DNA of 64,000 nucleotides from Nitrospirales bacterium (GTDB lineage Bacteria > Nitrospirota > Nitrospiria > Nitrospirales > UBA8639), in assembly GCA_029261295.1 (NCBI GenBank), contig JAJDBP010000002.1, positions 248,001-312,000 on the forward strand, in the 5' to 3' direction. The stretch's first letter is position 1; the number at the start of each line of letters is the position of its first letter. Under the pieces are notes generated by a model. It had not been told where the DNA came from. It ran no database searches and was given only the letters and a program-made list of their open reading frames with translations. Below, one piece after another: positions 10,441 to 51,715 of the stretch. The translations under genes were made by a program, and so were the position numbers.

Positions 10441-10563
10441 GGAGTTGTGCTACTCCTTCCTCACCGTGCACATTCTTTCCATTTTCTAACATTATTCTAT
10501 TGGTGCTCGTTCTTCTCCTCATTCTAGGATGAGCGCGTGCCATGAGTCTGTGAGTTGACGACG

Positions 10564-11364
10564 ATGAAAAATCGAGTGATTCAAATTGTCAGCGCTCCAT
10601 GGTTTGAGCGCCTTATTATTGTCTTCATCCTGATCAACGGGGTGATTTTGGGGATGGAAACGTCACCATCCCTGGTAGAACACTATGGGCACTTGATGCA
10701 TGTAGGTAATCATGTAATTCTGGGAATTTTTATTCTAGAAGCCTTGCTGAAAATGATTGCTGTGGCTCCACAAGTCAATCGTTACTTTCAGGATGGTTGG
10801 AATGTATTTGATTTTTCCGTGATTGTGTTTTCTTTGATCCCCGCCACAGGTGAGTTTGCCATGATTGCCCGATTAGCTCGCTTATTACGGGTAGTCCGTC
10901 TCGTTTCGACGATTCCAGAACTTCGATTGATTGTTTCGACGTTGGTTCGATCCATTCCCAGCATGATTCATGTCATGACCCTTATGGGAGTAATTTTTTA
11001 TATCTATGCCATTACTGGCTATCAGTTGTTCCATGAACATGACCCGACACATTGGCGATCATTAGGCATTTCCCTTTTGACTTTGTTTCGGGTAGTGACT
11101 CTGGAAGACTGGACAGATGTGATGTATGCGGCGATGGAATTTCATTATTTATCCTGGGTGTATTTTGTGAGCTTTGTCATATTGGGCACATTTGTTGTGG
11201 TCAATTTATTTATTGCTGTGGTTATCAATAATCTGGATGAAGCTAAAGCTGAACGACTGGCTGAACTTCAGGGACCGGTCACTCAAAAAGAGATCCTCAA
11301 AGATTTGCGAGATACCCAAAAAGCTCTCAAGCGTTTAGAGGAGCGCTTAGATAAAACGTCTTAA
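10564..11364 (+). CDS. Single-domain voltage-gated cation channel (BacNav/BacCav family)
   Basis: An inner-membrane tetrameric ion channel of the NaChBac family with 266 residues. Six transmembrane segments are visible. S4 is ARLARLLRVVRLV with arginines at every third position. The pore helix ends in the selectivity filter TLEDWTD (residues 179-185). S6 is FVILGTFVVVNLFIAVVINNL, followed by a C-terminal coiled coil (residues about 230-266). NavAb-type sodium channels have TLESWSM here. The additional acids D182 and D185 match the positions engineered to make NavAb calcium-selective, so calcium permeation is likely (inference). The ATG at 10564 is taken over a TTG at 10555. A broken second copy lies at 19304-19710. 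Confidence 0.92.
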   Translation: MKNRVIQIVSAPWFERLIIVFILINGVILGMETSPSLVEHYGHLMHVGNHVILGIFILEALLKMIAVAPQVNRYFQDGWNVFDFSVIVFSLIPATGEFAMIARLARLLRVVRLVSTIPELRLIVSTLVRSIPSMIHVMTLMGVIFYIYAITGYQLFHEHDPTHWRSLGISLLTLFRVVTLEDWTDVMYAAMEFHYLSWVYFVSFVILGTFVVVNLFIAVVINNLDEAKAERLAELQGPVTQKEILKDLRDTQKALKRLEERLDKTS

Positions 11365-19303: not shown

Positions 19304-19710
19304 ATGAAACAGCAAGCGAATCAGATTGCTCGTGCTCATCGTGTTTATCCTGATCAATAGGGCCTGTATGGAAACATTACCGGCACTGATGCGGCGGTAT
19401 GGCGACCTCATGCATGTTGGGGATTTCGCTGCTCACGTTGTTTCGATTGATGACGCTGGAAGATTGGATGTATGTGATGTATTCCGCCATGGAATCCCAT
19501 CGGTTGTCTGTGGTCTATTTCGTGAGATTTGTCATCTTAGGCACATTTGTGGTCATCAATTTGTTTATTTCCACGGTGATCAAGAATCTTAATGAAGCTA
19601 AAGTTGAACGACTCACAAAACTTCAAGGACCGGCCACACAAAAAGAATTTCTCAAAGCTTTAGGAGAAACGCACAAAGCACCAATATGTTTAGAAGCGCA
19701 TTTGGCCTGA
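19304..19710 (+). pseudogene. Decayed second copy of the voltage-gated cation channel
   Basis: This is a broken paralogue of the intact channel at 10564-11364. It starts ATGAAA, soon changes frame, and aligns with S1 (VLIVFILIN and METLPALMRRYGDLMHVG). It then jumps, with another frame change, straight to the pore: LGISLLTLFRLMTLEDWMYVMYSAMES. The match continues through S6 (FVILGTFVVINLFISTVIKNLNEAK) to LQGPATQKEFLKAL. S2-S4 and S5 are missing (roughly 360 bases). The remaining filter reads TLEDWMY. Without the voltage sensor and in two frames it cannot make a working channel. Confidence 0.88.
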
Positions 19711-23749: not shown

Positions 23750-25087
23750 TTACCGTGGAATATTAATCCCATATTTTTTAATCTTATAATACACGGTTCC
23801 TCGACTCACTTTTAAAACGTCTGCTGCTTTTTGGGTATCCCATTTCTGCTCGGTCAGCACTTTGATGAGGGTTTGCCGGTTCACATCTGCCAACAGGGAC
23901 GGTTTTTCTTCAGATACATTCTCACCGCTGAGATCAGGGGGAAGTTCGTTGTAAATAACCTCATCATCAACCACATAGGTGGGGCGAGAACGAAGGATGA
24001 CGCTATAGAGTGTATTTTCTAATTGCCGAACATTTCCCGGCCATGGGGCCGATAATAGTAATTGCATGCCTTTTTCCGTAATAACCGGCAAAGTTTCTAA
24101 ATGAAGCTCTTTCCCAAGTTTTCGTAAAAAATGATCAATAAGAAATTGAAGGTCTTCCATTCGTTCCCGTAAGGGGGGAACAACAATTTGCACGACTCGC
24201 AGCCGGTAGTATAAATCTTCGCGAAAGCTCCCTTCTTGAATATCCTGTTCTAAATTCCTGTTTGTCGCGGTAATAAACCGGACATCTATTGGAATTTCTT
24301 GGGACCCCCCAACCCGCATGACGGCATGCTGTTGCAACACTCTCAGTAATTTAGCTTGAGCGGTCAAAGATAGTTCTCCGATTTCATCCAAAAATACTGT
24401 GCCGTCCTTGGCTTGCTCGATTTTTCCCATTTTCAAATTTACGGCACCGGTAAAGGCACCTTTTTCATAACCAAATAATTCACTTTCCATCAGATCGATG
24501 GGTAGAGCCGCACAATTGATTGGCAAAAACACTTTCCCACTTCGCGAGCTGCTCTGGTGAAGGGCTTGAGCCACTAATTCCTTCCCTGTCCCATGCTCTC
24601 CTCTGATAAGAACGGTGGCTGGGCTGTCGCCGACATCAAGAATCAGTTTATATAAATCCTTCATGGTAGAGCTTTCCCCGATTAACCCTCCAAAATGAAT
24701 GGTGTTTGAAGTAGAAGGCTGATTCTTTGAAGAAATATGAATAGAGTCTTCTTTGGATACTGGTTGAGAGAGAGCCGGCATGGGCCTGGTTTCGTCTTCA
24801 TCTAATTGTGCGTAGTCTATTTCAAAGGGGTAAACCGTTAGACGACAACGGTTGGGGAGTGGGGCTGGACCAGTCAAGGGTAGATTATCTAGGAAAATAC
24901 CATTTTTATTCTTATTCACAATTTCATACCCATTCCCCTTCCATTCAACCACAGCGGCAAACCGAGAAATATGGGCATCATTTAACACGACATCATTGGT
25001 GTCAGATCTCCCAATTGAAAGGCAATCTTTATTGAAGGACACTCGCATGATCAGAGCGCCTCTTAAATGAACAGTAAATTTAATCAT
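23750..25087 (-). CDS. FHA-domain sigma-54-dependent transcriptional activator
   Basis: A 445-residue enhancer-binding protein. An N-terminal FHA domain (about 1-95; CLSIGRSDTNDVVLNDAHISR with the phosphopeptide-binding Gly-Arg-Ser and Ser-Arg residues) replaces the usual receiver. The AAA+ domain (about 130-360) has Walker A GEHGTGKE, the sigma-54 contact loop GAFTGA and Walker B GTVFLDEIGE. A Fis-type helix-turn-helix closes the protein (QKAADVLKVSRGTVYYKIKKYGI). FHA domains bind phosphothreonine, so input from a Ser/Thr kinase is expected; one is encoded at 37411-39606. The ATG at 25087 is preferred to a GTG at 25120. It is divergent from the repeat-protein genes, whose sigma-54 promoters are likely targets. 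Confidence 0.93.
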   Translation of the reverse strand: MIKFTVHLRGALIMRVSFNKDCLSIGRSDTNDVVLNDAHISRFAAVVEWKGNGYEIVNKNKNGIFLDNLPLTGPAPLPNRCRLTVYPFEIDYAQLDEDETRPMPALSQPVSKEDSIHISSKNQPSTSNTIHFGGLIGESSTMKDLYKLILDVGDSPATVLIRGEHGTGKELVAQALHQSSSRSGKVFLPINCAALPIDLMESELFGYEKGAFTGAVNLKMGKIEQAKDGTVFLDEIGELSLTAQAKLLRVLQQHAVMRVGGSQEIPIDVRFITATNRNLEQDIQEGSFREDLYYRLRVVQIVVPPLRERMEDLQFLIDHFLRKLGKELHLETLPVITEKGMQLLLSAPWPGNVRQLENTLYSVILRSRPTYVVDDEVIYNELPPDLSGENVSEEKPSLLADVNRQTLIKVLTEQKWDTQKAADVLKVSRGTVYYKIKKYGINIPR

Positions 25088-25763
25088 TCGAGTCTTGTTT
25101 CCTTTTGTAGAACTATCCACCTAGGCCGTTTCCATAATCATACGGAAGCATTGCCTAAGAAGTTAGAGAATTCTGAAGAAATTTCAAAAATTAATCAAGA
25201 AGCCCTCAGGAACAAAGGGACGAAGTCATTCAAAAAAATAGGTAATGCGAATTGGAGATCTTATTAGACTTCAAGTTAGCAACAAAGGATGCTCCCTTTT
25301 ATATGCGTATGAATGAGAAAATGCCACTTTTTTCGCAATGCCCAAGAATTCAAGAACCCGGAAGATTGGTTGTAGAAATTGTCCCCAACGCGTATTTGTC
25401 GAAATTTGCGAACCTTCCCAAAAGAGAAGGCAAGATAATTCCTTTGCTCATATCTCTTCTGAAAATGAAAATAAGAACAGGCCCCCTATCCTATTCGTAT
25501 CTCTGAGTGGCTCATTTCAAAAGGACTGAAAAGTCGACTGTTGGTGATCGGAAGCGCTTCTTAGTTTTCTCATACAAACTTGCTGAATGATTCATTTTTT
25601 ATCTATTTAGATACGTTTTTAAAATTAAGATCAATTTTCCTAAAGTTTGAAACCATTTTGATTTTCCTGAGAGCTGCAATATTTTATAGAACATACTTAA
25701 TAACATATTGAAAATAAATGAAATTTAGCTCAATAATTTATTTTTTGTCCACACATGCGTTAT
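25088..25763. other. Intergenic region upstream of the repeat-protein locus
   Basis: About 680 bases separating the sigma-54 activator from its probable target promoter. Overlapping plus-strand frames (25252-25506, 25338-25529) lack ribosome binding sites and are not credited. Activator binding sites would be expected here, within a few hundred bases of the promoter at 25764, but no clear inverted repeat was recognised. Confidence 0.45.
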
Positions 25764-28168: not shown

Positions 28169-28334
28169 TCAGAAACCTATTGAGCCAATTAAGTAAATAA
28201 AAAAGTATTTCTATTAATTTTTAAAAACTCAAATTTCATTTCAAAATTTTAAATGGTTGCGAATTGAATGAAAATTTTCAAGAAAAAACAATCCATATTT
28301 CAATGGTATATACATAACTCTAAGGCACTTGAGA

Positions 28335-28352
28335 GCTGGTATGGCTTTTGCT
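28335..28352 (+). promoter_or_regulatory. Sigma-54 (-24/-12) promoter of repeat gene B
   Basis: CTGGTATGGCTTTTGCTT has GG (28338-28339) and GC (28350-28351) ten bases apart with the TTGCT -12 box. The -24 box is TGGTAT instead of TGGCAC. The same element with nearly the same flanks (TTGAG upstream, TTTA downstream) stands before the small gene at 44163, which strengthens both calls. Confidence 0.75.
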
Positions 28353-28483
28353 TTAAGTTAAAAGTATTGCATTGATGACAGGCATTCAAAAGAAAGGTGG
28401 CTGAAATGAACATACATCTTAAACATTCAACTAAGGAGGAAATCATGCAAGCAGAAATTAATCATTCACAAAAGGAGAGCAAA

Positions 28484-29305
28484 ATGAAAACAGTATTATC
28501 ATTTGTCGTCGCATTATTATTGGTCAGTACGCCTGTAGCTTTTGGGCAATCAAAAATTGATGGGAAAGTCATCAATAAATCCAAAGTCAACAAGTCAGCG
28601 AACCTGGCAATTGGTAAAGGTGCGGAAGCTAACATGGGGTCTGTGAAGATTAAGGGCTCAAATGTTAAAGGCACGGTTCTTAATAAATCCAAAGTGAATA
28701 AGTCAGCGAACTTAGCCATTGGTAAAGGGGCCACCGCCAACATGGGCTCGACCACCTTGGATGGGTCAAAGGTCAAAGGTAAAGTGATCAATAAGTCGAA
28801 AGTGAATAAGTCAGCGAACTTAGCCATTGGCGAAGGGGCTACGGCTAACATGGGGTCCATTACGGCAAAAGATTCTAAAATTAAAGGTACGGTGGTCAAT
28901 AAATCCAAAGTCAATAAGTCAGCGAACTTAGCCATTGGTAAAGGGGCCACCGCCAACATGGGTTCGGTCACCTTGGATGGGTCAAAGGTCAAAGGTAAAG
29001 TGATCAATAAGTCGAAAGTGAATAAGTCAGCGAACTTAGCCATTGGCGAAGGGGCTACGGCTAACATGGGGTCCATTACGGCAAAGGATTCTAAGATCAA
29101 GGGCAAAGTGATCAATAAGTCGAAAGTGAATAAATCGGCGAACTTAGCCATTGGCAAAGGGGCTACCGCCAACATGGGGTCTGTCACATTGGATAATGCT
29201 AAGGTCAAGGGCACGATTGTGAATAAAGCGAAGGTCAACAAATCTGCAAACTTGGCTATTGGTGAAGACAGTGAAGCCAATATGGGATCAGTCGTTGTTG
29301 AATAG
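28484..29305 (+). CDS. Secreted 36-residue-repeat protein B (putative fibre subunit)
   Basis: A 273-residue exported protein. The signal peptide MKTVLSFVVALLLVSTPVAFG is followed by seven 36-residue repeats with N-L-A-I-G, A-N-M-G-S and V-K-G-x-V-x-N positions equal to those of protein A, and K-S-K-V-N-K-S in the linker. It is Lys-rich, whereas A is Ala/Thr-rich, so the two could be major and minor subunits or co-assemble. The ATG at 28484 has AAAGGAG and starts the signal peptide. In-frame ATGs at 28445 and 28406 also have good ribosome binding sites and would add a hydrophilic N-terminal extension. No Cys is seen in the mature protein. Confidence 0.85.
   Translation: MKTVLSFVVALLLVSTPVAFGQSKIDGKVINKSKVNKSANLAIGKGAEANMGSVKIKGSNVKGTVLNKSKVNKSANLAIGKGATANMGSTTLDGSKVKGKVINKSKVNKSANLAIGEGATANMGSITAKDSKIKGTVVNKSKVNKSANLAIGKGATANMGSVTLDGSKVKGKVINKSKVNKSANLAIGEGATANMGSITAKDSKIKGKVINKSKVNKSANLAIGKGATANMGSVTLDNAKVKGTIVNKAKVNKSANLAIGEDSEANMGSVVVE
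28595..29302 (+). repeat. Tandem 108-bp repeats of gene B
   Basis: Seven in-frame 108-bp units. Blocks at about 28781-28878 and 28997-29094 are almost identical and 216 bases apart, so the units alternate between two types (GKGATANMGS with LDGSKVKG, and GEGATANMGS with AKDSKIKG), as in gene A. Confidence 0.9.
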
Positions 29306-36970: not shown

Positions 36971-37410
36971 GATCTACTATTCGCTAGATTGTGAGGGAGA
37001 TGCGTCCTCCACAGATGGCGCATGCAGATGAACCTGTCTTTCAATTTTCTGTGGATCTACTAAGTGCGTTTCAGGTGATTTTATCTAGGTATTTTATGCT
37101 ATACACTGAATCTGCCTAGTCCCTCGTTTTGGATGACCAAATTCATCCGTTTTTCTGCTACACAGACTTTTTTAAGTGCTGGGTGACCTTCGAGTGTCCT
37201 CTACTGTTAACCGTTAGAGGAAACCCACTTTTCAAGGTAAAAGTACATATTCAAAAGCACTTATAGCTACCTAACCCTAGCTTTTTCTCCGTAGGAGGTT
37301 CACATTGAATATAGTCACTACATCCATCTATTATGGAGTGGATTATAGGTGCAACACGATTCGTGGGTTCATTAACACACCTGTTTTCAATTAGAAAACA
37401 TAGGATTTCT
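36971..37410. other. Intergenic region before the kinase gene
   Basis: About 440 bases with no gene. The frame of the kinase is open from 37333, but the upstream part lacks a ribosome binding site. No sigma-54 element was found, so this gene probably has its own sigma-70-type promoter. Confidence 0.4.
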
Positions 37411-39606
37411 ATGACCGTCACGGTGTATTCAAATAAATATGAAATTCAGGAAGAGATCGCTCAGGGCGGGATGGGGATCGTCTATAAAGCTTGGGATCGC
37501 ATGCTTGAACGGGTGGTGGCGTTGAAAGTCATTCATCAAAATTTAGCCAAGGACTCTAACTTTTTGGATCGCTTTCTCGACGAAGCACGGAAAATGGCTC
37601 TTCTGCATCATACCAATATCATCCAGATCTATTCTGTTGAGAATGATCAAGGTATGCCATTTCTCGTCATGGAATATTTTCCAGGGGTCAATCTTAAGAC
37701 ATATCTCAGAAAAAATAATCCTCTTAGCCTCAATGAATCCGTGAAGATTGTTTCCCAAATTGCTCTCGCACTTATCTTTACCCACAGAAAGGGAATTATT
37801 CATCGAGACATTAAACCAGCGAATATTATCCTTGATGACTCATTGACCGTAAAATTAACCGATTTTGGTATTGCTCGTGCACTTGGTCAAACGGCCCACA
37901 CTGCCACAGGCCAATTATTAGGCACCGTTAAATATATGTCCCCAGAACAAGCGCGTGATATGCCTTTGGATGGTCGATCTGACCTGTATTCGCTTGGGAT
38001 GCTGTTTTACGAGTTAGTGACAGGCGAAAATCCAAGGAATGATTTGACGGCTGTTGGCATCCTCAGCAGACTTGTCACTGAAGGTCATATGCCTTCATTG
38101 AGATTCTCTGAAACCCTAAATATCCCCTCTGAGATTCAACAAATTATTATTGACCTTCTTCAGTTTCACCCAGAGAATAGAATTCCCAACGCGGAAAACT
38201 TCATAGATCGACTAGAGCAATCCTTTCCCAGTAGTACTACTGCTAAAACTAAATTTCACGCTGAGAATACCAGTGAAACAAAAACCTTGAGTCTGGACCA
38301 TAGTCTTAAATCTAAGGCGAATGAGGCGACGGGTTCTCAAGGCTCCGGCGCTTTCCAATCCAAAAACATTGATGAGGGTTCAGCGTTTGAACATCAAGGG
38401 TCAATGGCGGCACTCCAGAATCAACAAGCTCTTCCATTGGGTCAGGCTTTGGCAACTGAGCCAAAACCAAAATCGTTTTTGAGACTAAGGTATGGCATTC
38501 TTGTTCCTACCATTTCTCTTCTTTTGGCCATTGGTGGATATGCCTGGCACTATTTTGGAAGCACAGCCCCAGGCTTGCCCAAAGACAATCAATTAGCAAT
38601 GACACCGAAGCTCAGAATTATAAAAGAAGAAAAAACCACGCCTGTGGATTCTGATTCCAAACCAAACGTACAAGTGAACAAAGGACCTCAACTCAAGAAA
38701 TTTGACTCCCCTGACCCAGAGGTATTGCCGACTCTTTCTACTCAAATATCTCCACCAGCCATTGCTCGTCCATCCCCCTCATCTGATCTTTCTGTTGAAA
38801 TACCTCTCGAAGCGGAGGAAATCCAAGCGGAGTCTCCTCACGAAATCGTGCCTCCCTCCCAGGGCCAACCAGGGATAGAATCTACTATTCAACAATTAAA
38901 AACTGCGCCTGTGGTTTCTGATTCCAAACCAAACGTACAAGAGAACAAAGGACCTCAACCCAAGGAATTTGACTCCCCTGGCCCAGAGGTATTACCGACT
39001 CTTTCTACTCAAATGTCTCCACCAGCCATTGCTCGTCCATCCCCCTCATCTGATCTCTCTACTGAACCTCTCGAAGCGGAGGAAATCCAAGCGGAGTCTG
39101 CTCACGATATCGTGTCTTCCTCTCAGGGTCAGCCAGAGTCAAAATCTACTATTATAAACTTGTCCCAAGTTCCCAACTCAGACTTGTCCTCTTTAGAGGT
39201 CCCTCCGATGGTACCGGTAATGTCAGACTTTCCTAAAGAAACGATAGAAAATGGCTTAGACATTGTCCTCAATCAAGCATCACAAGAGAGCATGGAAGCC
39301 ATTCTTCATAATCAGGTTGAGAAACTTCAACGGGCTATCATTGAAAAAAATTGGGATGCCCTTGAACGGTTGAGTACTATGTCTGAATCTCGACGATTTT
39401 GGCTAGAAACCCTTTATACAAAATATCAATCCGTCCAAATCGATATTGCCCAAGTCGCTACTGAGCCCACAGAAGGTAAGGCGACCATTTATTTCACCAA
39501 AGGAATTCGGTCAAATGGTGAGGTCGTGATTCCCAACGCTATTGGTAGAACCATTAAAATTACTATTCCCAAAAACGGAGATGAATGGGGGCGAATCATT
39601 TGGTGA
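37411..39606 (+). CDS. Transmembrane Ser/Thr protein kinase (PknB-like)
   Basis: A 731-residue kinase. The N-terminal cytoplasmic domain has the glycine loop AQGGMGIVYKA, the ATP lysine K39 (VALKV), HRDIKPAN (131-138), DFGIARA (151-157) and the PEQARD segment, so it should be active. A linker, one transmembrane helix (about 359-382) and an extracytoplasmic part follow. The latter begins with two near-identical Pro/Ser-rich repeats and ends with a small NTF2-like domain (VEKLQRAIIEKNWDALERL to WGRIIW). The ATG at 37411 follows AGGA at five bases. The FHA-sigma-54 activator at 23750-25087 is a plausible substrate-reader of this kinase. Confidence 0.93.
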   Translation: MTVTVYSNKYEIQEEIAQGGMGIVYKAWDRMLERVVALKVIHQNLAKDSNFLDRFLDEARKMALLHHTNIIQIYSVENDQGMPFLVMEYFPGVNLKTYLRKNNPLSLNESVKIVSQIALALIFTHRKGIIHRDIKPANIILDDSLTVKLTDFGIARALGQTAHTATGQLLGTVKYMSPEQARDMPLDGRSDLYSLGMLFYELVTGENPRNDLTAVGILSRLVTEGHMPSLRFSETLNIPSEIQQIIIDLLQFHPENRIPNAENFIDRLEQSFPSSTTAKTKFHAENTSETKTLSLDHSLKSKANEATGSQGSGAFQSKNIDEGSAFEHQGSMAALQNQQALPLGQALATEPKPKSFLRLRYGILVPTISLLLAIGGYAWHYFGSTAPGLPKDNQLAMTPKLRIIKEEKTTPVDSDSKPNVQVNKGPQLKKFDSPDPEVLPTLSTQISPPAIARPSPSSDLSVEIPLEAEEIQAESPHEIVPPSQGQPGIESTIQQLKTAPVVSDSKPNVQENKGPQPKEFDSPGPEVLPTLSTQMSPPAIARPSPSSDLSTEPLEAEEIQAESAHDIVSSSQGQPESKSTIINLSQVPNSDLSSLEVPPMVPVMSDFPKETIENGLDIVLNQASQESMEAILHNQVEKLQRAIIEKNWDALERLSTMSESRRFWLETLYTKYQSVQIDIAQVATEPTEGKATIYFTKGIRSNGEVVIPNAIGRTIKITIPKNGDEWGRIIW
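38641..39160 (+). repeat. Tandem 267-bp duplication inside the kinase gene
   Basis: The segment starting CCTGTGGATTCTGATTCC at 38641 recurs at 38908 (CCTGTGGTTTCTGATTCC). The two copies encode nearly the same 89-residue Pro/Ser-rich linker (SDSKPNVQ, PPAIARPSPSSDL, EAEEIQAES). They differ by small changes and one codon. This lengthens the extracytoplasmic stalk. Confidence 0.9.
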
Positions 39607-42157: not shown

Positions 42158-43063
42158 ATGGATAAAACAATGAGTCGAGACATCTATCAAATAGCCTGTA
42201 AAAATTTAGTTCTCATCTTTCTTTTTTTCATTCCTCAGCTGGCCTTCGGGGAGGGCCTGGTGCCAGTTGAAGGACAGCATTGCTATCAATATGGTGATGA
42301 TGAATCCGTGAATGTGGCAAAAAAAAAGGCACTGGCCTTGGCCCGTGAAGTGGCTGTGAGTAACTTTAAGGTCTGGGTGGAAGTCAATACGACTGTGAAA
42401 GATTATAAGTTGGAAAAGGATTGGGTGGAAACAATTGCTGTGGGAATGTTACAGAGTGAAAAACGGCAGGTCACCAAAAAAGTTCAGGAAATTTGTACGA
42501 CTGTGAATGCCGAGATAAATCCGCAAGAAGTGGATGCTCTTATTGCTGAACGGAAAAAGCAGAGTTCCATTAAACAACGAGTAACCACTCAGACACCTGA
42601 CTCCAAATTTGACATAAAGGTTTGGCTCAATAATCCTGATGGTCAATATATTGAAGGAGATTATTTGGTAATCAACGTCAAATCTGACCAGGATGCCTAT
42701 TTAAAGCTTGATTACTTCCAGGCTGATTGTAAGGTGGTTCATTTAGTTCCTAATCTTTTTCGCCAACAGGCATTTATTAAAAAAGATAAGGTCTATACAT
42801 TTGGGAATGAAAATGCTCCTGAACGTTTTAGAATTCAAGGTCCATTTGGAGATGAAGTGATTAAGGTTATAGCCAGCGACAAACCGTTTCCTGCCTCGCA
42901 AATCTCACAGGAATCCATCAGTAATTGCGAGCCCTACGTCGAAACACTTGAGCAAGGGCGAACTCGAGGGATTTCCTTAGAACATAACCGGGCAAGTACA
43001 GGCGCATCCCTATTTACGTCTAGCCTAAAAGAGTTTGAACATAAGAATGCGAAAAATAAGTAA
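42158..43063 (+). CDS. Exported DUF4384 protein
   Basis: A 301-residue exported protein (signal peptide NLVLIFLFFIPQLAFG). The N-terminal part (VAKKKALALAREVAVSNFKVW, TTVKDYKLEKDWVE) looks like another LPP20-type helix-strand module. The C-terminal DUF4384 domain is clear from FDIKVWLNNPDGQYIEGDYL, LKLDYFQADCKVVHLVPN and IKVIASDKPF. No strong ribosome binding site precedes the ATG at 42158 or the one at 42170. DUF4384 proteins often accompany caspase-like and CsgG-like envelope proteins, as here. Confidence 0.8.
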   Translation: MDKTMSRDIYQIACKNLVLIFLFFIPQLAFGEGLVPVEGQHCYQYGDDESVNVAKKKALALAREVAVSNFKVWVEVNTTVKDYKLEKDWVETIAVGMLQSEKRQVTKKVQEICTTVNAEINPQEVDALIAERKKQSSIKQRVTTQTPDSKFDIKVWLNNPDGQYIEGDYLVINVKSDQDAYLKLDYFQADCKVVHLVPNLFRQQAFIKKDKVYTFGNENAPERFRIQGPFGDEVIKVIASDKPFPASQISQESISNCEPYVETLEQGRTRGISLEHNRASTGASLFTSSLKEFEHKNAKNK

Positions 43064-44087
43064 ATGGTGTGTTGAATGGAAATTCATGTATAGGGCTGTA
43101 TCATGACCAAAAATTGTTCGTGATGGGAGCCACAAAGTAGCAAAAGTTGCATCACTTTAAGACTTCAACGAAGCACGTTGCATGAATAGTTGGCCAAGCA
43201 AAAGGTAGATCATTGAAGGCCGGAGCCACCGCTAGATCATGACCCGCCTCAAATGACTTTTTTGTTGGTGCATGAAGTGCAGATATAACTAATATCCTGA
43301 GATACATTCGATTCAAATTATGCCCTTTGATAAGTCCTAAATGAAAGATCAACTGACGCTATTTAGGAATTGGACGAGCATACACAGCCTTTGTTCTTAA
43401 TGGGGAAAATAAACTGCCTGTCCGTTTCCGCATTTCTTTTAATTCCGGGAGAAGACTGGAGCAGAGGGTTGCCAAACTGAACTTCATTTATTTATACAAA
43501 ATGATAGAAAAAGTACATATCAAAAACACGTCCCTTACGAAGTAGCAGCTACTACACGGAACTTCCCTCATTGGAAAAGTTTGCATTAATCTTTTCAGAA
43601 TGAGAAACGTTTCTTCGTTCAGAAGCATCACACCGAATTTCCCAAATAATTTTTCTAGCTAGCCAGATCTAATATTCCCAGCTATTCTTCCCACATGCCG
43701 CTCGGCATGAACTTTCCTTGTTCCGTGCTCCTAATGGTATTTCCCATATCGCCGATTAATTCAATAATTAGAATTCCCGGCTCAGGGTTGGCCCTTCAGG
43801 AGATATGTTGGTTTTTCCCTTTCATGACCTTCAGCAAACGATTTCTAAGATTTTGGAAATAGTCTGAAGAGGCAACTCCAATTTTCCTTGGGGTAGCCTC
43901 TGAGTCCGATGCGCTAATTGAAAATGGAGTCATAAATGTTTTCGCTGAAATACAATGTATTGCCATTATTTTCAATAACAAGAATATCCTTTTAAAATTT
44001 TAAATATTTGTAAGTTTACTGAGGTGGCATAAAACAAAAACTATAGAAATTTCAATGACATATAAATTGTCCCGTGGTAGTTGAGCC
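43064..44087. other. Long intergenic region, AT-rich
   Basis: About 1 kb without a supported gene. Minus-strand frames at 43152-43352 and 43796-43981 lack ribosome binding sites. A 7-bp palindrome (CATGCCG-CT-CGGCATG, 43694-43709) is the only structure noticed. The last part is the upstream flank of the sigma-54 promoter at 44088. Confidence 0.4.
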
Positions 44088-44104
44088 CTGGTATGGCCTT
44101 TGCT
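44088..44104 (+). promoter_or_regulatory. Sigma-54 (-24/-12) promoter of a small gene
   Basis: CTGGTATGGCCTTTGCT has GG (44090-44091) and GC (44102-44103) ten bases apart. It is almost the same as the promoter before repeat gene B, and the similarity extends both ways (TTTCAATG and ATATA upstream, TTGAG just before, TTTA after). Transcription would start near 44115. Confidence 0.75.
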
Positions 44105-44162
44105 TTAGGTAATAGATAAGCAGCCATTTTTTGATTAACTTAATTACCTGGAGGGCAACATC

Positions 44163-44339
44163 ATGAGTTATTTCTTTCATCCAAATCAATTGCAAGGAAC
44201 GTTAGCTGAACAAGATGACTTTGATGAAAATATGGATATCCGAAGCATCAGTCGCGCGTTACGATTTTTGGAAGGGGTTGATTATCAAGAGGAACCTTTG
44301 CGATTTCGTCGTGGTCGTCGGGCACAATGGACTTCGTAG
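44163..44339 (+). CDS. Small 58-residue basic protein under sigma-54 control
   Basis: A complete 58-codon gene with CTGGAGGGC ending five bases before the ATG and a TAG stop. It starts MSYFFHPNQLQGTLAEQDDF, has a helical part (IRSISRALRFLEGVDY) and a very basic end (RFRRGRRAQW). No signal peptide or Cys is present, so it is cytoplasmic or RNA/DNA-binding. It shares a promoter type and flank with repeat gene B, so it is probably co-expressed with the fibre subunits, but no family is recognised. Its size, ribosome binding site and promoter together make it convincing. Confidence 0.7.
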   Translation: MSYFFHPNQLQGTLAEQDDFDENMDIRSISRALRFLEGVDYQEEPLRFRRGRRAQWTS

Positions 44340-45397
44340 TCGCATACTCTTGGACAAAGACTTCGTACACTCAATATGATGGTTTTCATAGTTTTGAAAC
44401 CTGAGATTGAAGCCAATGGAAACGGATCTAATGATTCGAATGTTCTAGAAGAATTTTGTAATGGATACTTTTTAGGCTTTCATAAGAGTATGAGCCGAGG
44501 ATATTCTGATTAAACTTTTTCTGTTGAACGAAATATACGGAGAGAAAGATTCTCTTTCAAAGAAGGATAAAGGAAGGATTCCCAAGATTGGGGTTCTGTG
44601 TTATGACCATTGGCATGAACTGTTCAGGTTTTGGTTTTTGTAAGTAAACTAAAAGTTATCTGGGTAATATGGGCCATCACATTCACAAGGATCAAAGTTT
44701 CTAGGCTTGGGAATGCTGGTTCCCATAAAAATTTGAAGACTCGATCTTAGAGGTGTATGCCTGTAGCTCTTTATCTAAAAAGATAAGTTTTGTATATTTT
44801 CCTGTACTGGTTCATTTTCTCTGATTTTATTCAGCCCACCAAAATCGAATAATTTTTTATCTCAAGGCTCCGAGTACAATGCCTTCTATTTCCCGTTCAA
44901 GCTAACCTTTCCCGTCAACCTAGTTTGTGCGCTGGTTCCAATCTGTGGGGTTCAATGCCGATAAACTGGGAATTAGCCTAAGGGCTCAATTCTTGTTTTG
45001 TTGCATTTTCTCTTCATACTCCTTTTTTTGCAATGCTATTTAACTGCTAATTTTTTCTATTAAGGTTGCCTTTCTGTAAGGGCGAATGGGTACTGAACAG
45101 GTAGGAGGATTTCTGACAATCTTGCTAGAGGATTAGTCAAACATTCTATAGCCATAACTACACAGAATTGTCGATGAGGATTGAAAGGCTAGCAATCCAG
45201 TTGCCAACTAAACAGCCAATAAATTATGGATAATCTAAATCGACCTGATTGGTTTGATAGTCAAAGAGGAGAAATGCAAAGGAGTAAGGCTATGAGGAAA
45301 ATTAGATATCTGTCAGGTCAGAATTGATGGAAATGATGAAAATAAGAATAAAATGTTGGAAGGAACCGCATGCCTTTTTGATAATTGGCCATTGATG
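44340..45397. other. Intergenic region, nothing recognised
   Basis: About 1 kb between the small gene and the convergent EgtE-like gene. Only very short frames occur and no tRNA, terminator with T-tract or repeat was recognised. This looks like decayed or regulatory sequence at the boundary of the fibre and ergothioneine regions. Confidence 0.4.
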
Positions 45398-50497: not shown

Positions 50498-51715
50498 ATG
50501 ACTACATTATGTTCTAGCCTTCAACAGGAATTGGAAGAAGCCCGGCGACGAACGGATAGTTTGTTTGAGTTGATAAGTCCAGACGCAATGTATGCGCGCC
50601 CGATTCCTGAGCGTCATCGGTTGATTTTTTATTTAGGGCATATCGAAGCGTTCGACTGGAATCAATTATGTCGGTGGACGTTGGGGAGGCCGGCATTTCA
50701 TTCATCGTTTGATCAATTATTTGAGGCGGGCATTGATCCGACGGTTGGAACTGCTACGGCCGACACCCCTTCTGATTGGCCCACAATCCGTGAAGTGGGA
50801 GATTACAATACTCGCGTTCGGCAAGAAGTTGATCAGGCCTTAGAGCAAGTCTCAGAAGAGATGGTGCATGTGGCGATTGAACATCGTCTCATGCATATCG
50901 AGACTACCGCGTATTTAATTCATCATTTGGACCTTCGAGAGAAACAGACACCTCATTCTGCACGACTTTCTTTAAATGGGACAGCCCCTTCCGAAGAAAT
51001 GGTAGAGATCCCTGAAGGGCCGACTCGGTTAGGTCGTCGTCATGGGGAGGGTTTTGGGTGGGATAATGAATTTGGGGAACATGAAATCATTGTACCTTCT
51101 TTTGCCATGAGCCGTTATAAAATAACCAATGGCCAGTATTTACAATTTGTGAATCAGGGGGGAACCCCACCTGCTCTTTGGGAGCGTCAGGAGGAGCAGT
51201 GGATGTTGAGGACGATGTTCCAACTCGTGCCCTTACCCTATTCTTGGCCTGTGTACGTGACGCATACACAGGCTCAGGCTTATGCAGAATGGAAAAAGTT
51301 GACTTTGCCAACTGAAGCACAATTTCACCGCGCAGCGTATGGTAGGCCCTCGGGTGATGATCAACCGTTTCCCTGGTCTGCAAATTCTGTCCCTCAACAT
51401 TGCGGCAATTTTAATTTTCAGGCTTGGGATCCTACGTCAGTGACAGCCGATTCCCAGGGAAGGAGTGCGTTTGGTGTGGCTCAATTGGTTGGCAATGGCT
51501 GGGAATGGACATCGACTCCTTTCCACCCATTTGAAGGCTTTCAACCATTCTCAACCTATCCAGGCTATTCGGCTCGATTTTTTGATCAAGATCATTACGT
51601 TGTGAAAGGCGGAGGACCGTTGACTGCTGGGCGATTATTAAGGCGGTCATTCCGAAATTGGTTTCGCCAAGGCTATTCTTATGCCCACACCGGTTTTCGT
51701 TGTATTAAGGCTTGA
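50498..51715 (+). CDS. egtB: Ergothioneine-type sulfoxide synthase EgtB
   Basis: Couples hercynine with a thiol (cysteine or gamma-glutamylcysteine) and oxygen at a non-haem iron centre. It has 405 residues, in two parts: an N-terminal DinB-type helical bundle with the metal motif His129-x3-His133-x-Glu135 (HRLMHIET), and a C-terminal formylglycine-enzyme/sulfatase-modifying domain (about 170-405; VAQLVGNGWEWTSTPF and FRNWFRQGYSYAHTGFRC). TGAGG precedes the ATG. No egtA or egtC is in the window, so the thiol could be cysteine, but other loci cannot be excluded. Confidence 0.93.
   Translation: MTTLCSSLQQELEEARRRTDSLFELISPDAMYARPIPERHRLIFYLGHIEAFDWNQLCRWTLGRPAFHSSFDQLFEAGIDPTVGTATADTPSDWPTIREVGDYNTRVRQEVDQALEQVSEEMVHVAIEHRLMHIETTAYLIHHLDLREKQTPHSARLSLNGTAPSEEMVEIPEGPTRLGRRHGEGFGWDNEFGEHEIIVPSFAMSRYKITNGQYLQFVNQGGTPPALWERQEEQWMLRTMFQLVPLPYSWPVYVTHTQAQAYAEWKKLTLPTEAQFHRAAYGRPSGDDQPFPWSANSVPQHCGNFNFQAWDPTSVTADSQGRSAFGVAQLVGNGWEWTSTPFHPFEGFQPFSTYPGYSARFFDQDHYVVKGGGPLTAGRLLRRSFRNWFRQGYSYAHTGFRCIKA

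Follow-up and report, generated by a model that had tools for sequence, protein, structure and literature searches.

P58, a predicted orphan small-protein gene of a Nitrospirales bacterium, and its sigma-54 promoter region related to that of a fibre-repeat gene

P58 is an open reading frame (ORF) preceded by a perfect sigma-54 promoter element in the window, which is the whole 64,000-nucleotide stretch of Nitrospirales DNA analysed here and to which all coordinates refer unless otherwise indicated (Table 1). Judged from their sequences, the promoter regions of P58 and of the fibre-repeat protein gene at 28397 are of common descent; this promoter ancestry is the new finding of the analysis and its one clear new fact. 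The interpretation that we favour, with reasonable though not high confidence, is that P58 is a real orphan small-protein gene whose product is made alongside the fibre, with expression driven by a sigma-54 promoter of common ancestry.

Table 1. Coordinates of P58, its upstream elements and the related fibre locus.
Feature	Position	Strand	Remarks
P58 5' region, homologous to 28189-28366	43941-44118	+	BLAST core 43954-44110
AT palindrome TTTTAAAATTTTAAAT	43990-44005	.	Candidate activator site; holds the longest identical block (12 nt) common with the fibre promoter
Perfect sigma-54 -24/-12 promoter TGGTATGGCCTTTGCT of P58	44089-44104	+	Exact match; genome control
Shine-Dalgarno (SD) GGAGG of P58	44150-44154	+	8 nt before ATG; read directly, with shuffle control
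P58 ORF (58 aa, stop included)	44163-44339	+	Acidic middle, one predicted helix, Arg-rich C-terminal tail
FHA / sigma-54 activator / Fis-HTH protein	23750-25120	-	Candidate activator of both promoters
Matching 5' region of fibre-repeat gene 28397-29305	28189-28366	+	Holds sigma-54 site 28337-28352
Fibre-repeat protein gene	28397-29305	+	302 aa as listed; same promoter type as P58

Promoter region common to P58 and the fibre gene

Sigma-54 elements were sought with the pattern TGGYAYRN4TTGCW on the coding strand, 5' of a start codon. The preliminary description had proposed a sigma-54 promoter in front of P58, and this was confirmed: the element has zero mismatches, lies on the same strand as the frame and has its first base 74 nt from the ATG. 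Transcription would start at about 44114. Exact TGGYAYRNNNNTTGCW sites occur at two positions in the window (28337 and 44089), and elements with at most one mismatch number nine, compared with 3.85 +/- 1.77 in shuffled sequence. Across the genome (4.06 Mb), 16 exact sites were found versus 3 for the pattern read backwards.

A blastn comparison within the window aligned the 5' regions of P58 and the fibre gene at 69% identity over 158 nt (E 4e-10). A longer alignment, of 43941-44118 to 28189-28366, has identical bases in 119 of its 179 columns. The score of the local alignment is 57, in comparison to 12.4 +/- 1.9 (maximum 21) in 500 dinucleotide shuffles, and neither region has a second partner on either strand of the window (outside the two regions, the P58 region scores no higher than 16 and the fibre region no higher than 20). 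The correspondence is thus closer than the promoter type matching the fibre genes that had been claimed for P58: its 5' region is a diverged relative of that of the fibre gene.

Identity between the two copies is uneven. It peaks across the sigma-54 box, where 11-13 of 14 positions agree, and at the palindrome TTTTAAAATTTTAAAT, with 12 of 14, and falls to 5 of 14 where the copies differ most. The bases that a comparison of these two diverged copies predicts to be important are those of the sigma-54 box and the AT palindrome. The latter is found about 90 nt 5' of the box (-24) of P58, which is the usual distance for an activator site, and is a candidate for such a site. A possible activator is encoded by gene 23750-25120, which adjoins the fibre genes and combines an FHA domain, a sigma-54 activator domain and a Fis-type helix-turn-helix (HTH); this protein may act on both promoters.

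The homology ends at the promoter. A comparison of the P58 transcript, the ORF and the downstream DNA with the fibre gene gave no match, and the DNA further upstream of the promoter region did not resemble the fibre locus. When the promoter region was used as a DNA query against 40 genomes (its own and 39 relatives), short chance matches were returned besides the region itself; this search lacks the sensitivity to rule out diverged copies in other places, since the copy at 28 kb did not appear among the matches listed. With a homologous 5' region and common boxes, P58 probably belongs to the sigma-54 regulon of the fibre gene by promoter descent, and co-regulation of the two genes is considered likely.

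Reading frame and predicted protein

Direct reading of the ORF places the ATG at 44163 and a TAG stop codon at 44337-44339, in agreement with the defined stop and good ribosome binding site of the preliminary description (GGAGG, 8 nt 5' of the ATG). The length of the frame is by itself of no significance, because an ORF of at least 58 aa is present in 979 of 1000 sequences obtained by dinucleotide shuffling of 43064-45397 (the observed number in this region is three). An ORF of at least 58 aa together with a GGAGG-type SD 5-10 nt from the start is found in 15 of the 1000 shuffles.

The codon usage of P58 is gene-like. Codon log-odds were trained on 43 genes of the window, with P58 outside both the training set and the background. 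In frame, P58 scores 0.19 per codon. Of 263 pieces of the same length cut from window genes, 59% score lower, and each of the five alternative readings of this DNA gives a negative value. The G+C content by codon position is 57/40/31%, versus 55/40/43% in genes. P58 therefore has the SD, open frame and gene-like codon use of a translated small protein, and we regard its translation as very likely. An overlapping antisense ORF (44248-44370) was rejected as a coding frame: despite a codon log-odds of 0.21, it was taken as a shadow since it lacks an SD.

The P58 product has a computed pI of 5.2 and a net charge of -2.4. The acidic-then-basic composition described earlier is borne out (six acids in residues 15-26 and five bases in residues 46-58, an Arg-rich tail; permutation p = 0.02 for charge segregation), whereas the accompanying label of a basic protein applies to the tail alone. 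A single-sequence AlphaFold model has a poor mean pLDDT (59) and contains one helix, at residues 26-37; apart from likely disorder at the ends of the protein, this prediction is hardly informative. Because direct reading of the sequence identified no hydrophobic N-terminal signal, P58 is probably cytoplasmic.

Relatives and genomic surroundings

P58 is present in a single copy in its own genome. In 59 genomes (own included), all matches at E up to 1 other than P58 itself had E-values of 0.08 or worse, and in 395 genomes of the phylum (own included) there were four other matches at E 0.05 or better, the best of which (0.003) has an in-frame stop. No homologue was found in a set of 84,980 species, in viral contigs or in plasmid and phage collections. 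The PDB yielded at best chance-level matches, Pfam, NCBIfam and PHROGs yielded no family at E 10, and the literature search found nothing that ties to the locus. Within the sets searched, P58 is by these comparisons a lineage-specific orphan small protein. The conservation that was expected to be telling for this frame was thus not found in the 59 genomes, the 395 of the phylum and the 84,980-species and viral sets. The preliminary description would have abandoned the gene if a conserved homologue and a translation signal were both lacking: no homologue was found in the sets searched, but the signal is present in the form of the SD and codon use.

A search of 40 genomes located the fibre gene at 28397, which has no Pfam family, in its own genome alone. 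Three contigs elsewhere also encode it (L083, L084 and L085, labelled Proteobacteria, Nitrospira and Desulfobacteraceae). Neither P58, nor a matching promoter, nor a similar small ORF was seen near the fibre homologue in any of these three stretches (each 11-21 kb; P58 could lie further off), and presence of P58 beside fibre genes is accordingly not conserved in them. A conserved fibre cluster is suggested by L083 and L084, where homologues of 29951 and 31758 form a run of neighbours also present in the window. A second fibre-repeat locus is located on contig C4 of the same genome (L082, 9812-10642), without a matching promoter.

The DNA around P58 had been described as 1 kb of empty sequence on each side, which is half right. 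Upstream, 43185-43475 (- strand) is a relic of the N-terminal residues 1-97 of gene 50498-51715, which we take to be EgtB-like, with 46% identity and an in-frame stop; this relic accounts for the nucleotide matches that the P58 gap has in four congeneric genomes. Downstream, where 32 stop-to-stop pieces of 28 aa or more were listed, six such pieces have no Pfam match, and no clear terminator was seen after the ORF, a point that also weighs against a P58 gene. A further decayed duplicate, at 19332-19704 (+ strand), is a copy of the ion-channel-like gene 10555-11364 (75% nucleotide identity over 285 nt). Given these two decayed duplicates, this stretch of the genome collects copies, of which the P58 promoter may be another; with such a neighbourhood, P58 itself could be a young or failing gene. 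Two adjoining copies of approximately 259 nt, 90% identical, are also found at 38631-39153 within the protein-kinase-like gene 37333-39606.

Proposed role and alternative explanations

In the proposed mechanism, sigma-54 RNA polymerase would transcribe P58 from the promoter that shares ancestry with that of fibre gene 28397, and P58 would be produced alongside the fibre, with the FHA-type activator as the most likely controlling protein. Our guess is that the product is a short, mostly disordered adaptor with a helix and an Arg tail, which might tune fibre expression or export. The size, place and tail of P58 make a regulator possible, and the RNA/DNA-binding partner also suggested in the preliminary description would have the Arg-rich tail in its favour; that P58 tunes the fibre system is nonetheless a doubtful proposition. 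Equally tentative is the suggestion that P58 is a newly recruited regulator or adaptor of the repeat-fibre system, acquired by copying of the whole fibre enhancer-promoter region (promoter capture). If the promoter copy explains P58 expression, the locus is a readable case of a new small gene entering a regulon in one step; if not, P58 is one more orphan small protein.

The copied promoter could instead be a leftover of duplication, and P58 an ORF that arose recently or by accident behind it and is expressed but functionless. This explanation is consistent with the lack of a P58 homologue in the sets searched, with the two other decayed duplicates in the window (EgtB and ion channel) and with the halt of the fibre-locus homology at the promoter, short of the gene. 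However, the SD is strong and well spaced (15/1000 shuffles), the codon use is gene-like, and the sigma-54 box has kept an exact match although identity across the whole copied region has fallen to about two thirds; we consider a functionless leftover unlikely, though by no means negligible. The SD and codon use also favour translation over a real product that is a sigma-54-dependent small RNA, with the P58 ORF incidental or dual. What makes such an RNA conceivable is that the sigma-54 promoter precedes a short transcription unit and that any larger gene is more than 1 kb away, but there is no Rfam match in the window and no clear or strong terminator was seen after the P58 stop. In addition, the computed fold of P58 RNA is weaker than that of its shuffles (z +1.8), which fits an mRNA better than a structured small RNA, and the small-RNA explanation is improbable.

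The least credible explanation makes P58 a piece of some known gene. Of 25 weak-match loci inspected, 12 contain the same stretch of what is presumably a PhoH-like ATPase (38-41% identity over 34 residues), and the remainder are unrelated frames, some with stops. The E-values of the PhoH-like matches (0.08-0.6 per genome) are at chance level, and the recurrence represents one family counted 12 times. In those genomes the stretch lies within an open frame of 338-394 aa. P58 itself matches no Pfam model at E 10, and no intermediate sequence linking it to PhoH was found in the sets searched.

An expressed small-protein gene, our preferred reading, has parallels in several known systems. The curli accessory proteins CsgC, CsgE and CsgF are small proteins whose expression accompanies that of the secreted repeat fibre they assist, and P58 is similarly a small candidate partner of a repeat fibre with predicted co-expression; unlike them, it has no matched sequence family or signal peptide, and fibre protein 28397 has no Pfam family. 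P58 resembles the orphan small-protein genes of bacteria in being shorter than 60 aa, with a good SD, no homologue and a mostly low-confidence model, but differs from them in lying behind a promoter region that can be traced to a named related promoter in the window. Like the sigma-54 (RpoN)-dependent genes of the bacterial exterior (Francke et al. 2011; PMC3162934), P58 lies behind a -24/-12 element without mismatch, has an enhancer-binding activator encoded in its cluster and is paired in its putative regulon with a surface-type gene. It differs in having neither an export signal nor a family, and its sigma-54 dependence is predicted from sequence.

Homologues of gene 42158-43063 (DUF4384) occur at three loci of the same genus (L033, L034 and L035), and no P58 look-alike was recognized by eye among the SD-bearing small ORFs near these and the related activator genes. 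The DUF4384 homologue adjoins a homologue of the FHA/sigma-54 activator in L033 and L035, and is located beside type VI secretion-like genes in L034 (neighbour names at the three loci are from reading of the ORFs). Elsewhere in the P58 genome, further exact sigma-54 sites precede secreted-looking proteins (L040, L049 and L054), those of L049 and L054 being alike by eye.
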